This document shows positions 9,952 to 16,452 of a stretch of DNA of 64,000 bases, one piece after another. Position 1 is the stretch's first letter. Each line of letters opens with the position of its first letter. This DNA is from a virus. Location of the stretch: positions 1 to 64,000 of IMG/VR virus record IMGVR_UViG_3300038427_000657. One strand, given 5' to 3'. Below the pieces are notes generated by a model. The model was not told the origin of the DNA. It saw only the letters and a program-made list of their open reading frames with translations, and ran no database searches. The position numbers and the translations under genes were made by a program.

Positions 9952-10026
9952 TGGCGCTTCATAAGGGACTTGAACCCTTATAAGGCGGTTTAGGGGCGCC
10001 TGTTCTTGCCATTGAACTAATGAAGC
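9952..10026 (-). tRNA. Putative amber suppressor tRNA (CTA anticodon, C33)
   Basis: Acceptor GCTTCAT/ATGAAGC with discriminator G and CCA, T-arm AAGGG-TTCAAGT-CCCTT. The 17-nt anticodon arm is GGCGC-CCCTAAA-CCGCC: anticodon CTA, C at position 33 and a C-C mismatch at 31-39. By code it would read UAG. UAG still ends several genes here (for example 45721-45723), so wholesale recoding is unlikely. Confidence 0.65.
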
Positions 10027-10233: not shown

Positions 10234-10785
10234 TTAGAACAGAACTTGAAGACCAATTGTATAGCTAAGTTTATTTTCAAATCTACCAAATGTATCATTA
10301 GCAGCATTAAGGTCAAATGGAGCTTCAATACGACCAAAAAGGTTGACATCTTTCTTCAAATAAAATCTAAGGTCAGCCTCAGGAGCAGCAGTCCATTTTA
10401 ACGGTTGATCACCATAAGCAGCACCAATGTTAACACCTGCATCAGATTGCAAATTACCTATTCTAAACAATCTTGGATCCAAGTATGCTTTTGTAGATAA
10501 TGCCCAACTACTATCGGTAACATCTGAATAACTTATACCTTGGCGAATACCGCCCTCAATAGGGAGAAGCAACTTACCAGTATGACCAAGTTCAAGATTA
10601 AGACCGACAGTAGAATTATTTAATTTATCGTTATTAATTGCCGATGAACCACCACCGCTTAGAGCAAATGTCCACGGACCTACAGCAGCTGCGTTGGTTG
10701 ATAAGTCAACAGCAGAAACTGCGGTTACTGATAACAATAATGCTATAGCAAATAACGCACCAACTAATGTTTTAATATATTTCAT
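10234..10785 (-). CDS. Secreted outer-membrane beta-barrel-like protein
   Basis: 183 aa with a clear Sec signal peptide (MKYIKTLVGALFAIALLLS, cleavage near AVSA-VD) and a mature domain of alternating polar/hydrophobic strands ending in Phe (GLQVLF), the hallmark of outer-membrane barrels. It has a real ribosome-binding site (AAGGAAAAATC-ATG), a roughly 120-nt leader, its own promoter (10906-10933) and a strong terminator, unlike most neighbours. Possibly captured from a Gram-negative host; might alter the cell surface or exclude other phages. Confidence 0.8.
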   Translation of the reverse strand: MKYIKTLVGALFAIALLLSVTAVSAVDLSTNAAAVGPWTFALSGGGSSAINNDKLNNSTVGLNLELGHTGKLLLPIEGGIRQGISYSDVTDSSWALSTKAYLDPRLFRIGNLQSDAGVNIGAAYGDQPLKWTAAPEADLRFYLKKDVNLFGRIEAPFDLNAANDTFGRFENKLSYTIGLQVLF

Positions 10786-10944: not shown

Positions 10945-11793
10945 TCAGATTATAAAATCCTTATAAGATTCATGATATTCTCCAATAGTATAATAAAATT
11001 TGTTTATTAACTCAATTATTTCAGGCGTCAACCTTTGTTTTGCTTTATCAATTGTGGATTGAGGAATAGAACGAACACCATAAAATGCTTCGGCAATGGA
11101 ACCTGCAATGGCTGCAATAGTATCAGTATCACCCTTGGTATAAACTGCATTACGAATGGCTGACTCATAATCCGTGGATTCCATAAAGCATATTAATGCT
11201 TGAGGAGCGGTTACATCACATCTGATAGTAGTTTTTGGTAACAATCGTAGTTCTTCAACAGTCATATTCAACATATGACCAAAACTCTTTTCCACATATG
11301 ATTTAATTTGTAATTTTGACTTTCCATGCAATGCCATATAAATGGCAGAAACAATTGATTGAATTCCACGAGCCGATTCTGGAGAATTATGTGTCATTCT
11401 GATACTTTCTAATGCTACAGATTTTGCTATATTAAAATCGTCATAGTATAAACCAATAGGACTACAACGCATCATACATCCATTTGCATAACTATTCTTT
11501 ACTGTAATTCCGCCTTCACTAACCCATTCATAAAATCCACTTCCATATCCTTTATTTGGATATTTTGACGCCCACTTTTTGTATAATTCTGCAAATGGAG
11601 GATAACCTATAGGCGAATCATTAATAGTAAATGTTTGTAAAATTGCATCAGCAGTAGCGCAAGTAAGAACGGTATCATCCGTAAAACGTGAATTTCTTCC
11701 ATCAAACAAAGAAAAATTTCTATCATCTACAAAATTAAGACCAGCACCTTCGTAGGGTGAACCGACTATATCTCCTATAATTGCTCCAATCAT
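10945..11793 (-). CDS. ADP-ribosylglycohydrolase (DraG/ARH family) 1
   Basis: 282 aa, full length for the family. GAIIGDIVGSPYE (3-15), FTDDTVLTCATADAIL near 37-52 and GDTDTIAAIAG near 235 supply the Asp/Thr residues that hold the two catalytic metals. Removes ADP-ribose from proteins or nucleic acids in known members. Last gene of a four-gene operon, 3 nt after a second ARH-like gene. Host or phage target is unknown. Confidence 0.9.
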   Translation of the reverse strand: MIGAIIGDIVGSPYEGAGLNFVDDRNFSLFDGRNSRFTDDTVLTCATADAILQTFTINDSPIGYPPFAELYKKWASKYPNKGYGSGFYEWVSEGGITVKNSYANGCMMRCSPIGLYYDDFNIAKSVALESIRMTHNSPESARGIQSIVSAIYMALHGKSKLQIKSYVEKSFGHMLNMTVEELRLLPKTTIRCDVTAPQALICFMESTDYESAIRNAVYTKGDTDTIAAIAGSIAEAFYGVRSIPQSTIDKAKQRLTPEIIELINKFYYTIGEYHESYKDFII

Positions 11794-11796
11794 AAA

Positions 11797-12993
11797 TTAT
11801 TTTTCTTTTATATTGTTCAGTATGTCTTTTATAGCATCTTTATTAACATTGTATTCTGTTCTTTTTCTTTGTGTTGTAATTTCAGGCAACGGGTCACCCA
11901 TTACTCCTTCCATTGGTTGACAATATCTTATCCATTTTTCAGGTGGAGAACTGATAATTCCAATCATACCACCAACAATAGCACAATTTGTATCAACATC
12001 ACCAAAACATTTACAAGTATCAATTAAAACCTTTTCATACATTTCATCTAATGGATATAAGGATAATGCCTGTATTGTTAAAAATACACATAATGGAACT
12101 GTATCTTGACAAGTAACATATGTTCCATTTCCTAAAATTTCAATCAGTTTCATCAAAGGTATGTCCAATGGAAGTTCCTTTGCTTTAAGAATACCTTTTT
12201 TTACTTGGCTATCAGGAATAAATTCCAAGATGTAATCATAGATTTTCTTGGTATCCATATCTGTGACATAATTTGTATTCAACACCTTTTCCGATTTATA
12301 TACCCATTCAGACAACGAAATACACTTTGCTAATGATGCAATAGCAATAGCACCAGCAATCCCTTCCGGATGACAATGAGTTGGTTCTGCTGATAACGTT
12401 GCTTGTTTAACAACTTCTTCAATTGGAGAAAGATAAAAATACGCACCCAATGGAGGAATTCTCATAGCAGACCCATTACCACACGAACCAACTTTTTGTG
12501 GAAGAAATTTTTGACTACCATCTTTTCTTAATTCCGATAAAGCATCTTTGACAGATTTACCATGCGCAATATCACCTATTAACACATCAATGTTTGATGG
12601 ACTTTCGCCTCTCTGAAATGTTAAATTTGCTTCTCTCCAAGGTTTACCCTCATAAATATCTTTTAACACTTTCCTAGTCATCAATCCGTAACCATAAATT
12701 TCACCATCAGGGTCACGGGTATAATATCTAGTTGCCCATTCCATCGCTAACTTATCTTGTAAAATTTTCTTGTTGTTAAACAAGTGATTTACCAAAACGA
12801 TTGCCTCTTCCGTGTCATCGGAATATTGGAATGATTTTCCCATAGGGTCTATGTTATCTATCCCAAATTTAGCAATTCCTTCATCCAACGCTTTTAATAT
12901 GTCTTGAGCGTAATAAAACTGTCCAACATTTCCAATACAATCACCAACCCACAAACCTTTGAGGGATTTTACCATTAATTCTATATTATTCAT
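11797..12993 (-). CDS. ADP-ribosylglycohydrolase-like protein 2
   Basis: 398 aa, larger than ARH 1. SLKGLWVGDCIGN (9-21), YSDDTEEA and the late GDVDTNCAIVGG metal-binding motif identify the DraG fold; SCGNGSAMRIPPLG and EPTHCHPEG match conserved family segments. The first SDDT motif follows the family pattern, so activity is plausible. Central gene of the DUF1152-ARH-ARH operon. Confidence 0.85.
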   Translation of the reverse strand: MNNIELMVKSLKGLWVGDCIGNVGQFYYAQDILKALDEGIAKFGIDNIDPMGKSFQYSDDTEEAIVLVNHLFNNKKILQDKLAMEWATRYYTRDPDGEIYGYGLMTRKVLKDIYEGKPWREANLTFQRGESPSNIDVLIGDIAHGKSVKDALSELRKDGSQKFLPQKVGSCGNGSAMRIPPLGAYFYLSPIEEVVKQATLSAEPTHCHPEGIAGAIAIASLAKCISLSEWVYKSEKVLNTNYVTDMDTKKIYDYILEFIPDSQVKKGILKAKELPLDIPLMKLIEILGNGTYVTCQDTVPLCVFLTIQALSLYPLDEMYEKVLIDTCKCFGDVDTNCAIVGGMIGIISSPPEKWIRYCQPMEGVMGDPLPEITTQRKRTEYNVNKDAIKDILNNIKEK

Positions 12994-13032
12994 AATATCA
13001 TTATATTCCAGCTACAATTTTGATTCCCATAT

Positions 13033-13923
13033 TTAATACGGTATTGATTGAGACATTCTTGTAGGAATTGACATTTCCTCAATAGTCGATATTGACTCCG
13101 CAAAAGTAAAATGATTCTCCAATAGAGGAATAATATTATTCTTTTTAATAACAACATCTCCATCAAAAAACCACATGATACCCATTAATGGGGATAAGAA
13201 TACTAAAACTTCAGGATATATAGATGACTCATTTTGATACCATTTTTCTCCAACCAATCCTTCTATGGAAGGTATTATTCTTGGATGAATATGACTTTTT
13301 CTATAATTTGGAAGATTTGCTATGTTTTCATAGGCAGATTTGTAAAATTGAAATGATGACATATTTTTAGTAAGAGAACAAGAACCAAGAAATGCATCAT
13401 CTTTTATCAATTCTGCCATATTTTCCAACGCATGATAATGAGAAATTTGTTCTTCAACTTCACAACCAAATCCAAAAACAACCAACCACTTTTTTATTGG
13501 AATGTTTTTAAAAGCTGCAAGAGCCACAAAATCTTCTCCTACAGTTCCTTTAAACTCTTCATCACCATGCATTAAAGAATCCACACCACAATCAACCATA
13601 ATAACATGGTCAATATTATGTTTTTCAATTATCTTTTCATAACTTTTTCGGAGAATAGAAGGACCAACTCTACCATCAATATAAATAGGTTTCTTTATAA
13701 ATTTGGCAAGTGGAATTTCAGGCAAAAAAGATGAACTATCATGTTCATTCTCATCAACTATTGAAGAAACTAAATGGGAAAATTGATGACTATGAAAGAA
13801 ACAATTCATGCCCATTCTTGTTAACGTGTAATAAATAGGTAATGTTCCGTAAATATCAAAACCACCACCCATACCACACAGCAGAACGTTAGCACCCTCT
13901 ACTTTACTAGGTAGATTTAACAT
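13033..13923 (-). CDS. DUF1152-like protein
   Basis: 296 aa. The N-terminal CGMGGGFDIYGTLPIY glycine-rich signature matches DUF1152, whose members are mostly of unknown function. A VDCGVDSLMHGDEE segment in the middle is also conserved-looking. Placed between a small protein and two ADP-ribosylglycohydrolases, it may act on the same metabolite or modification; that is inference. Confidence 0.8.
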   Translation of the reverse strand: MLNLPSKVEGANVLLCGMGGGFDIYGTLPIYYTLTRMGMNCFFHSHQFSHLVSSIVDENEHDSSSFLPEIPLAKFIKKPIYIDGRVGPSILRKSYEKIIEKHNIDHVIMVDCGVDSLMHGDEEFKGTVGEDFVALAAFKNIPIKKWLVVFGFGCEVEEQISHYHALENMAELIKDDAFLGSCSLTKNMSSFQFYKSAYENIANLPNYRKSHIHPRIIPSIEGLVGEKWYQNESSIYPEVLVFLSPLMGIMWFFDGDVVIKKNNIIPLLENHFTFAESISTIEEMSIPTRMSQSIPY

Positions 13924-14074
13924 AGTTATTTTTAATCAACCTTTCCAATTTCTTAAGAGCATATTTCGTCAGAGGCATTGTTTTCTGTAATTGTAACAAA
14001 GCTTCCTTTTCTGTTGTTAAAGGATTGTTTAACCTACCTTCCAATGTTGGCCAATTCAGAACATTTTTTTTCAT
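13907..14074 (-). CDS. Small 55-aa protein, first gene of the ADP-ribose operon
   Basis: Starts at the ATG 9 nt downstream of an early promoter and overlaps the start of the DUF1152 gene by 17 nt, implying translational coupling. Lys/Leu-rich and helical (ALLQLQKTMPLTKYALKKL). No family recognised. Confidence 0.65.
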   Translation of the reverse strand: MKKNVLNWPTLEGRLNNPLTTEKEALLQLQKTMPLTKYALKKLERLIKNNYVKST

Positions 14075-16048: not shown

Positions 16049-16452
16049 TGGTGGACGTGACGGGAATTGAACCCGTGTTTTTACCATTACACCCATCCAG
16101 CACTACATGTTTATCAACTTTAAACTTCGGTTTAATATCAAAATTTGAGAAAATTATCAAACCTAGATTGAGAACTGCCCAATCTAACCAGTCCTGTAAT
16201 TTTAACCACAAGCAGTTTTCTCACGGTTTTACGCCATTATTGAATTAGTGAGAATCACTCAACATGACGGAGCGGAAACTAGGCCGCTACAGCGACTTCC
16301 TCAAAGGTATTAACCTCAAAAGCAAAGTCAGCATTTACCAATCGATTTAGATTAGCATTTAGTTTAGTCTTCGTTTTTTAAGAGGCCACAGATGACCAAT
16401 CCTCTACATGCTCTGTATGACTGTTATGATAAATCGATACCATTACACGCCC
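16049..16452 (-). ncRNA. ssrA: tmRNA (transfer-messenger RNA)
   Basis: 404 nt. The ends form a tRNA-like domain: acceptor GGGCGTG/CACGTCC, discriminator A, encoded CCA, T-arm ACGGG-TTCAATT-CCCGT. An internal frame (16279-16356) starts at GCT and ends EEVAVAA-stop, the hydrophobic Ala-rich tail of proteolysis tags. An early-type promoter (16469-16496) starts about 10 nt upstream. Frees stalled ribosomes and tags the products. Tag length is 25 codons from the first GCT, or 17 if the second GCT resumes; both follow TAAAT. Confidence 0.9.
16279..16356 (-). other. tmRNA tag reading frame
   Basis: Begins ANLNR and ends EEVAVAA followed by TAG. Longer than the typical 10-15 residues. An alternative resume codon within it (ADFAF) would give 17 residues. 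Confidence 0.75.

Follow-up and report, generated by a model that had tools for sequence, protein, structure and literature searches.

We propose that a small operon in a jumbo phage serves to remove and recycle ADP-ribose within an NAD+/ADP-ribose economy that the phage itself encodes, a reading that in our judgement stands at an even balance. The operon lies in a 64,000-nucleotide stretch of viral DNA (the window; positions 1 to 64,000 of IMG/VR virus record IMGVR_UViG_3300038427_000657), on the minus strand between positions 10945 and 14074. It comprises a 55-aa open reading frame (ORF; 13907-14074), possibly a leader or small protein, a 296-aa DUF1152 protein (PF06626; 13033-13923) and two ADP-ribosylglycohydrolases (ARGs), ARG2 (398 aa; 11797-12993) and ARG1 (282 aa; 10945-11793). 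What can be read directly from the DNA are these and other genes, their families, their retained metal-site residues and a set of recurring neighbourhoods. The original prediction had named the same four genes, and all of them were found in place, with Pfam matches for every one except the 55-aa ORF. The 55-aa ORF overlaps the start of the DUF1152 gene by 17 bases, DUF1152 is separated from ARG2 by 39 bases and ARG2 from ARG1 by 3 bases; given this overlap and these short gaps, the packing is operon-like and co-transcription of the four ORFs is likely. The window belongs to a 189-kb record, and a second contig of 365 kb carries the same block with 99.7% identity over the 12.9 kb compared. We take both contigs to be the same jumbo phage, with a genome no smaller than 365 kb of which the window record is a fragment, in agreement with the phage setting that had been predicted.

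Both hydrolases match ADP_ribosyl_GH (PF03747; curated cut-off 26.2 bits), ARG1 with 124.4 bits over profile positions 3-286 of 287 and ARG2 with 125.3 bits (the two E-values being 4.9e-36 and 9.5e-36), and at only 21% identity to one another they are as distinct as had been claimed. They had also been called DraG-type, a loose label: the solved structures closest to them are mostly ARH3-type, and in the alignment both lack the DraG-specific Asp motif that is present in other homologues. Rather than a loss of the catalytic Asp/Thr residues, which the original prediction had raised as an objection to itself, the alignment shows the metal-binding Asp/Thr(Ser) residues kept in both proteins: the dinuclear metal site is T38-D39-D40 and D222-T-D224-T225 in ARG1, and S58-D59-D60 and D332-V-D334-T335 in ARG2. 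ARG1 further retains E15 (the Glu flap), Y102 (the adenine-stacking Tyr) and H135, and ARG2 retains H206. Set against the ARH3 branch of the ARH/DraG family, the likeness thus consists of the profile match and the dinuclear metal site in both enzymes, with E15 and Y102 in ARG1, whereas ARG1 differs in its short length and ARG2 in four respects: its first metal motif has Ser instead of Thr, Gln25 and Cys171 occupy the Glu-flap and Tyr positions, and about 40 residues are inserted. By these residues ARG1 looks ARH3-like and a good candidate for an active hydrolase, and ARG2 appears to be a divergent one. A PADLOC match of ARG1 to mREase_II (17.4 bits, 67 residues) was judged spurious. Pfam identified no ADP-ribosyltransferase (ART) gene among the ORFs neighbouring the ARG genes, and hence no pair of the DraT-DraG type.

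The DUF1152 protein matches PF06626 with 69.6 bits (E 3.6e-19; cut-off 27) and keeps all 14 residues that are invariant in an alignment of 68 family sequences. These include a GGG-x-D loop after strand 1, which reads GMGGGFD in the window protein and GxGGGFD across the alignment, and D111-x-G-x-D115...G120-x-E122. Among solved folds, the AlphaFold2 model of the protein (pLDDT 92.8, pTM 0.92) is closest to the LmbE/PIG-L zinc deacetylases (Z 9.3-11.9 over 172-186 residues, rmsd 3.1-4.3; the best match has Z 11.9 over 178 residues, rmsd 3.1), and the next unrelated fold follows at Z 7.3. A Foldseek search of the model against the PDB gave no match at E <= 0.001, and sequence or profile comparison with solved structures found no credible relative. 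We considered and rejected the possibility that DUF1152 is an LmbE deacetylase. The HPDD(E) zinc motif is absent, the H-P-D-D of the zinc N-deacetylases (PF02585) corresponding to G-G-G-F-D in DUF1152, and a comparison by hhalign detects no similarity between the profiles (probability 0.4%); for these reasons the model presents DUF1152 as LmbE-like in its Rossmann fold only. A shared fold shows no function, and the chemistry of DUF1152 probably differs from that of the LmbE deacetylases. The family occurs in bacteria, archaea, phages and giant viruses, and among the last Hyperionvirus (BFVD A0A3G5AD54, E 2.4e-20) and Klosneuvirus (A0A1V0SJT1) encode a DUF1152 domain that matches the predicted fold. 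In the DUF1152 tree the three phage proteins group in a single clade (support 0.94) beside Chloroflexi sequences (0.99), as would be expected of an established phage lineage. Among 50,697 named phage records neither DUF1152 nor ARG2 found a match. The papers searched contain no mention of DUF1152 or PF06626. Longer ORFs around DUF1152 at two loci (L030, L058), examined as domain fusions, contain no second Pfam domain and are probably start-codon overcalls.

The original prediction had left the DUF1152 protein without an explanation; it is the neighbourhood of DUF1152 in other genomes that points towards ADP-ribose. In two phages (L091, L092) a macrodomain gene lies just upstream of DUF1152. 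In Verrucomicrobia (L038, L059) DUF1152 is followed by an ARG2-like gene, and genes for a microbial PARG or macro protein, KptA and a nicotinamidase-like protein adjoin; in L038 the ARG2-like protein is fused to an N-terminal cREC domain and the locus also holds NrtR-, NadR- and PnuC-like genes (assigned by eye). ARG and KptA stand beside DUF1152 in Inhella (L079), macro and KptA in Aquimarina (L029), and macro in Armatimonadetes (L027), while on a plasmid of the haloarchaeon Halalkalicoccus it is surrounded by genes for Nudix, NAD kinase, nicotinate phosphoribosyltransferase (NAPRT), isochorismatase and macro proteins. When the families of direct neighbours were ranked (115 proteins scanned), Macro came first with five and ARG had three, as did Lactamase_B. 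Twenty of these genomes, about 129 Mb in total, contain 42 macro and 52 ARG genes, and by our estimate roughly 0.1 macro and 0.1 ARG would be expected by chance in the genes flanking 80 loci. General neighbourhood clustering of the 80 loci gave no dominant partner, and those with ADP-ribose neighbours are scattered over the DUF1152 tree. The association is a minority but recurrent signal.

Relatives of ARG1 occur on 16 other IMG/VR contigs, and at several of these sister loci ARG1 and an upstream 208-aa gene frame a variable cassette. The cassette consists of a sirtuin, an R2K ATP-grasp ligase, a 161-aa protein and ARG2 in L136 and L137, of the first three without ARG2 in L138-L140 and of the 161-aa protein only in L141, and L142 and L143 have none of these genes; the block of sirtuin, ligase and 161-aa protein beside the ARG genes lies at L136:608-2774 and L139:1460-4219. 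The sirtuin matches SIR2 (E 5e-44 and 3.7e-47) as a canonical family member, and its nearest solved relative is an NAD-dependent deacetylase (E 5.9e-46). DUF1152 sits where the sister phages hold the sirtuin and the R2K ligase, and so takes the position of an NAD+-consuming enzyme, although a positional swap does not prove a functional swap. A search for the same operon in other phages had been suggested. The block recurs on the second contig of the same phage; at the sister loci ARG1 and the flanks are retained, with sirtuin and R2K genes instead of DUF1152. Some Firmicutes have an ARG gene between two R2K ligase genes (PMC4431377), and L136-L140 likewise hold an R2K ligase in the ARG1/ARG2 cassette; the phage cassette differs in adding a sirtuin, or in having DUF1152 instead, and the window phage is without R2K at the locus. 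Directly upstream of ARG1, on the opposite strand, four sister loci have a zinc-finger/HNH-like ORF (L136:4315-4785, L139:4214-4822, L142:4211-4945, L143:4475-4945), probably a homing endonuclease. In L142 an NAD_synthase gene lies near ARG1.

Candidate genes for the other parts of such an economy are found elsewhere in the same virus record (G000, whose coordinates follow); those from the PARP to the NAD synthetase lie on the same strand and are assigned by Pfam unless stated. A WGR + PARP_reg + PARP protein is encoded at 100216-101493 (PARP PF00644, E 1.4e-20). Its PARP (74.1 bits) and WGR (23.1) matches are over their cut-offs and PARP_reg (24.8) is just under the cut-off of 26.8; the catalytic H-Y-E triad is kept in the motifs HGT, GYTYG and DELIVY, with the terminal Glu region aligned (NEYIVY/DELIVY), and its best solved relatives are PARP1. 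Genes follow for phosphoribosyl pyrophosphate (PRPP) synthetase (102733-103728), polynucleotide kinase-phosphatase (104009-104947), NAPRT (104944-106107; NAPRTase 1.2e-50), an isochorismatase-type, nicotinamidase-like protein (111374-112186; best solved relative a nicotinamidase, E 2.6e-4), a Nudix protein whose N-terminal half resembles an adenylyltransferase (NMNAT) by eye (112674-113600), a second Nudix protein (113749-114243), a CTP_transf_like protein that is a candidate adenylyltransferase (117784-118275) and the glutamine-dependent NAD synthetase NadE (CN_hydrolase + NAD_synthase; 119424-121514). In this candidate nicotinate route NAPRTase, NAD_synthase and CTP_transf_like are over their cut-offs, the last being a superfamily match, so that its specificity as an adenylyltransferase is putative. 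A macrodomain at 177280-177855 (L103:13280-13855) is closest in the PDB to 5m31/5m3i (E 4e-18), which we take to be DarG macrodomains. Macrodomains of the DarG type reverse DNA ADP-ribosylation, and the DarG-like phage protein is a candidate antidote to host DNA ADP-ribosylation. Families of cREC, PNK and RNA ligase are present in the phage as well. PARP, NadE and NAPRT likewise occur in the 215-kb record of a related phage (G026), whose ARG1 is 65% identical.

From this gene content we infer every activity in our model, and the order of its steps. The phage PARP (the sirtuin in sister phages) would spend NAD+ and put ADP-ribose on targets or make ADP-ribose derivatives. ARG1, as an ARH3-like metal hydrolase, and the divergent ARG2 would cut ADP-ribose off these conjugates or derivatives, a removal in which the macrodomain would join them, and DUF1152 would handle a related ADP-ribose or NAD+ derivative that ARG1 and ARG2 do not. 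The Nudix enzymes would then split ADP-ribose into AMP and ribose-5-phosphate, and PRPP synthetase, the nicotinamidase-like enzyme, NAPRT, adenylyltransferase and NadE would rebuild NAD+. Since this phage has a PARP writer and an NAD+ rebuilding set, and its sister phages a sirtuin, the substrates may just as well be ADP-ribosylation made by the phage itself, or small molecules derived from NAD+, as marks set by the host. More tentatively, DUF1152 could be a new NAD+/ADP-ribose enzyme family, a zinc-less LmbE-like Rossmann enzyme acting on an ADP-ribose or NAD+ derivative, which in bacteria and archaea would belong to NAD+ repair clusters and in jumbo phages, possibly also giant viruses, to a complete write-erase-recycle system.

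Two alternatives, erasure of host marks and clean-up of small molecules, share most of their evidence with this model. ARG1 and ARG2 might strip ADP-ribose put on phage DNA, RNA or proteins by toxins or defence ARTs of the host, whether DarT-like or directed at proteins, with DUF1152 assisting, much as the original prediction suggested in proposing reversal of host ADP-ribosylation. Such a reversal is possible: both hydrolases keep their metal sites, the phage has a macrodomain closest to 5m31/5m3i, of the type that acts on DNA ADP-ribosylation, and the cassette varies between sister phages, as counter-defence loci often do. However, the phage's own writer and NAD+ rebuilding genes are superfluous to this idea, and ARG1 is retained across sister phages while its neighbours change, which fits a core role. 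We find counter-defence unlikely as the full explanation, and as first put it was incomplete, having overlooked the PARP, macrodomain, Nudix and NAD+ genes and the sirtuin of the sister phages. It is likewise unlikely, in our view, that the three enzymes break down metabolites or signals derived from NAD+ (O-acetyl-ADP-ribose, cyclic ADP-ribose signals, and the ADP-ribose 1''-phosphate or cyclic phosphate that RNA repair produces) and return their ADP-ribose to NAD+. Here the sirtuin of the sister cassette is a source of O-acetyl-ADP-ribose, which ARH3 can degrade (PMC7050489, PMC9503650), bacterial ARG2 relatives are fused to cREC beside KptA and DUF1152, cREC, PNK and RNA-ligase families occur in the phage, and a phage protein has been reported to break down such signals and to supply NAD+ synthesis (PMC13232231). 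Yet the queries used retrieved no KptA or sirtuin homologue from the phage of the window, and ARGs have been argued to prefer macromolecular conjugates (PMC9503650). That the genes are incidental cargo, acquired from hosts by a large phage and active without a shared role, would agree with a cassette that differs from one related phage to the next and that most jumbo phages lack, and with the missing matches to DUF1152 and ARG2 in named phages; but the occurrence of DUF1152 beside ADP-ribose enzymes in several unrelated lineages, and the single, apparently established clade of phage DUF1152s, make this very improbable.

Several points also weigh against the eraser-and-recycling model that we prefer. 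We know of no DUF1152 protein with a known activity. Most of the 80 bacterial DUF1152 loci have no adjoining ADP-ribose gene. About 87 kb separate the phage PARP from the operon, so the writer does not share a gene cluster with the erasers; the nicotinamidase-like protein scores under its Pfam cut-off (24.0 against 27), and in the NMNAT-Nudix protein the NMNAT half was recognised by eye only. Finally, the Glu-flap position of ARG2, equivalent to Glu41 of human ARH3, is a glutamine. As the glutamate is crucial in ARH3, with a minor effect in DraG (PMC7050489), the activity of ARG2 is uncertain and less sure than that of ARG1; Gln25 weakens the claim of ARH3-type catalysis for ARG2, not its membership of PF03747.

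Expression from one promoter had been predicted for the operon. A sigma-70-like candidate (TTGACT-16-TATCAT, with TG before the second hexamer) lies on the minus strand at 14110-14083, and the tight spacing of the ORFs agrees with a single transcript. But the pattern scan found 20 sites against 23.5 in shuffles, no excess, this site included, and the candidate is so near the ATG at 14074 that it would give a transcript with hardly any leader; for both reasons a single promoter is plausible and no more firmly placed than that. The 55-aa ORF, which may be a leader, matches nothing over cut-off in Pfam, PHROG, NCBIfam or PADLOC. Upstream, the unrelated same-strand gene of the 208-aa protein (14745-14119), which has no assigned function and is the flank conserved in related phages, stops 44 bases before the operon. 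The downstream flank on the same strand is a 183-aa putative secreted or outer-membrane-like protein (10234-10785), a counterpart of which also lies downstream of ARG1 in L136 and L139 (by eye). ARAGORN called a tRNA-Pyl (CUA) at 9952-10026; stop-codon recoding through this tRNA-Pyl-like gene was considered and rejected, TAG, which ends 14 of the 272 long ORFs counted, being treated as an ordinary rare stop. A tmRNA gene is called at 16049-16452 (tag ANLNRLVNADFAFEVNTFEEVAVAA), and the phage's Pfam tally (L101-L103, L108-L111; records G000 and G001) includes two Mom-family DNA-modification proteins and three DruA-like proteins.

The kinds of component described here are already known in jumbo phages (PMC9503650, PMC7824862; for R2K-ARG, PMC4431377). 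ARTs or PARPs, macrodomains, Nudix proteins, ARGs and NAD+ synthesis genes have been surveyed in them, ARGs being present in about 5% (PMC9503650, PMC7824862), and NadV, NadM and NadR have been named as the principal phage NAD+ enzymes (PMC9503650), in a paper that does not mention NadE. In comparison with these surveyed networks, the present phage has NAPRT, NadE, PRPP synthetase and a nicotinamidase-like gene together with a PARP and two ARGs. Judged by the literature searched, what is new is the link of DUF1152 to ADP-ribose metabolism and the alternation of sirtuin and DUF1152 beside ARGs.

That jumbo phages carry ARGs, PARPs or NAD+ genes has so far been known separately. The present phage appears to combine a PARP as writer with two ARGs and a macrodomain as erasers, together with candidate enzymes for all the steps that rebuild NAD+. 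If our model is true, this would be a testable case for some phages running reversible ADP-ribosylation with their own cofactor supply. DUF1152 gains a concrete lead drawn from multiple lineages, and the swap between the sirtuin of the sister phages and the DUF1152 protein found here suggests which chemistry to screen.

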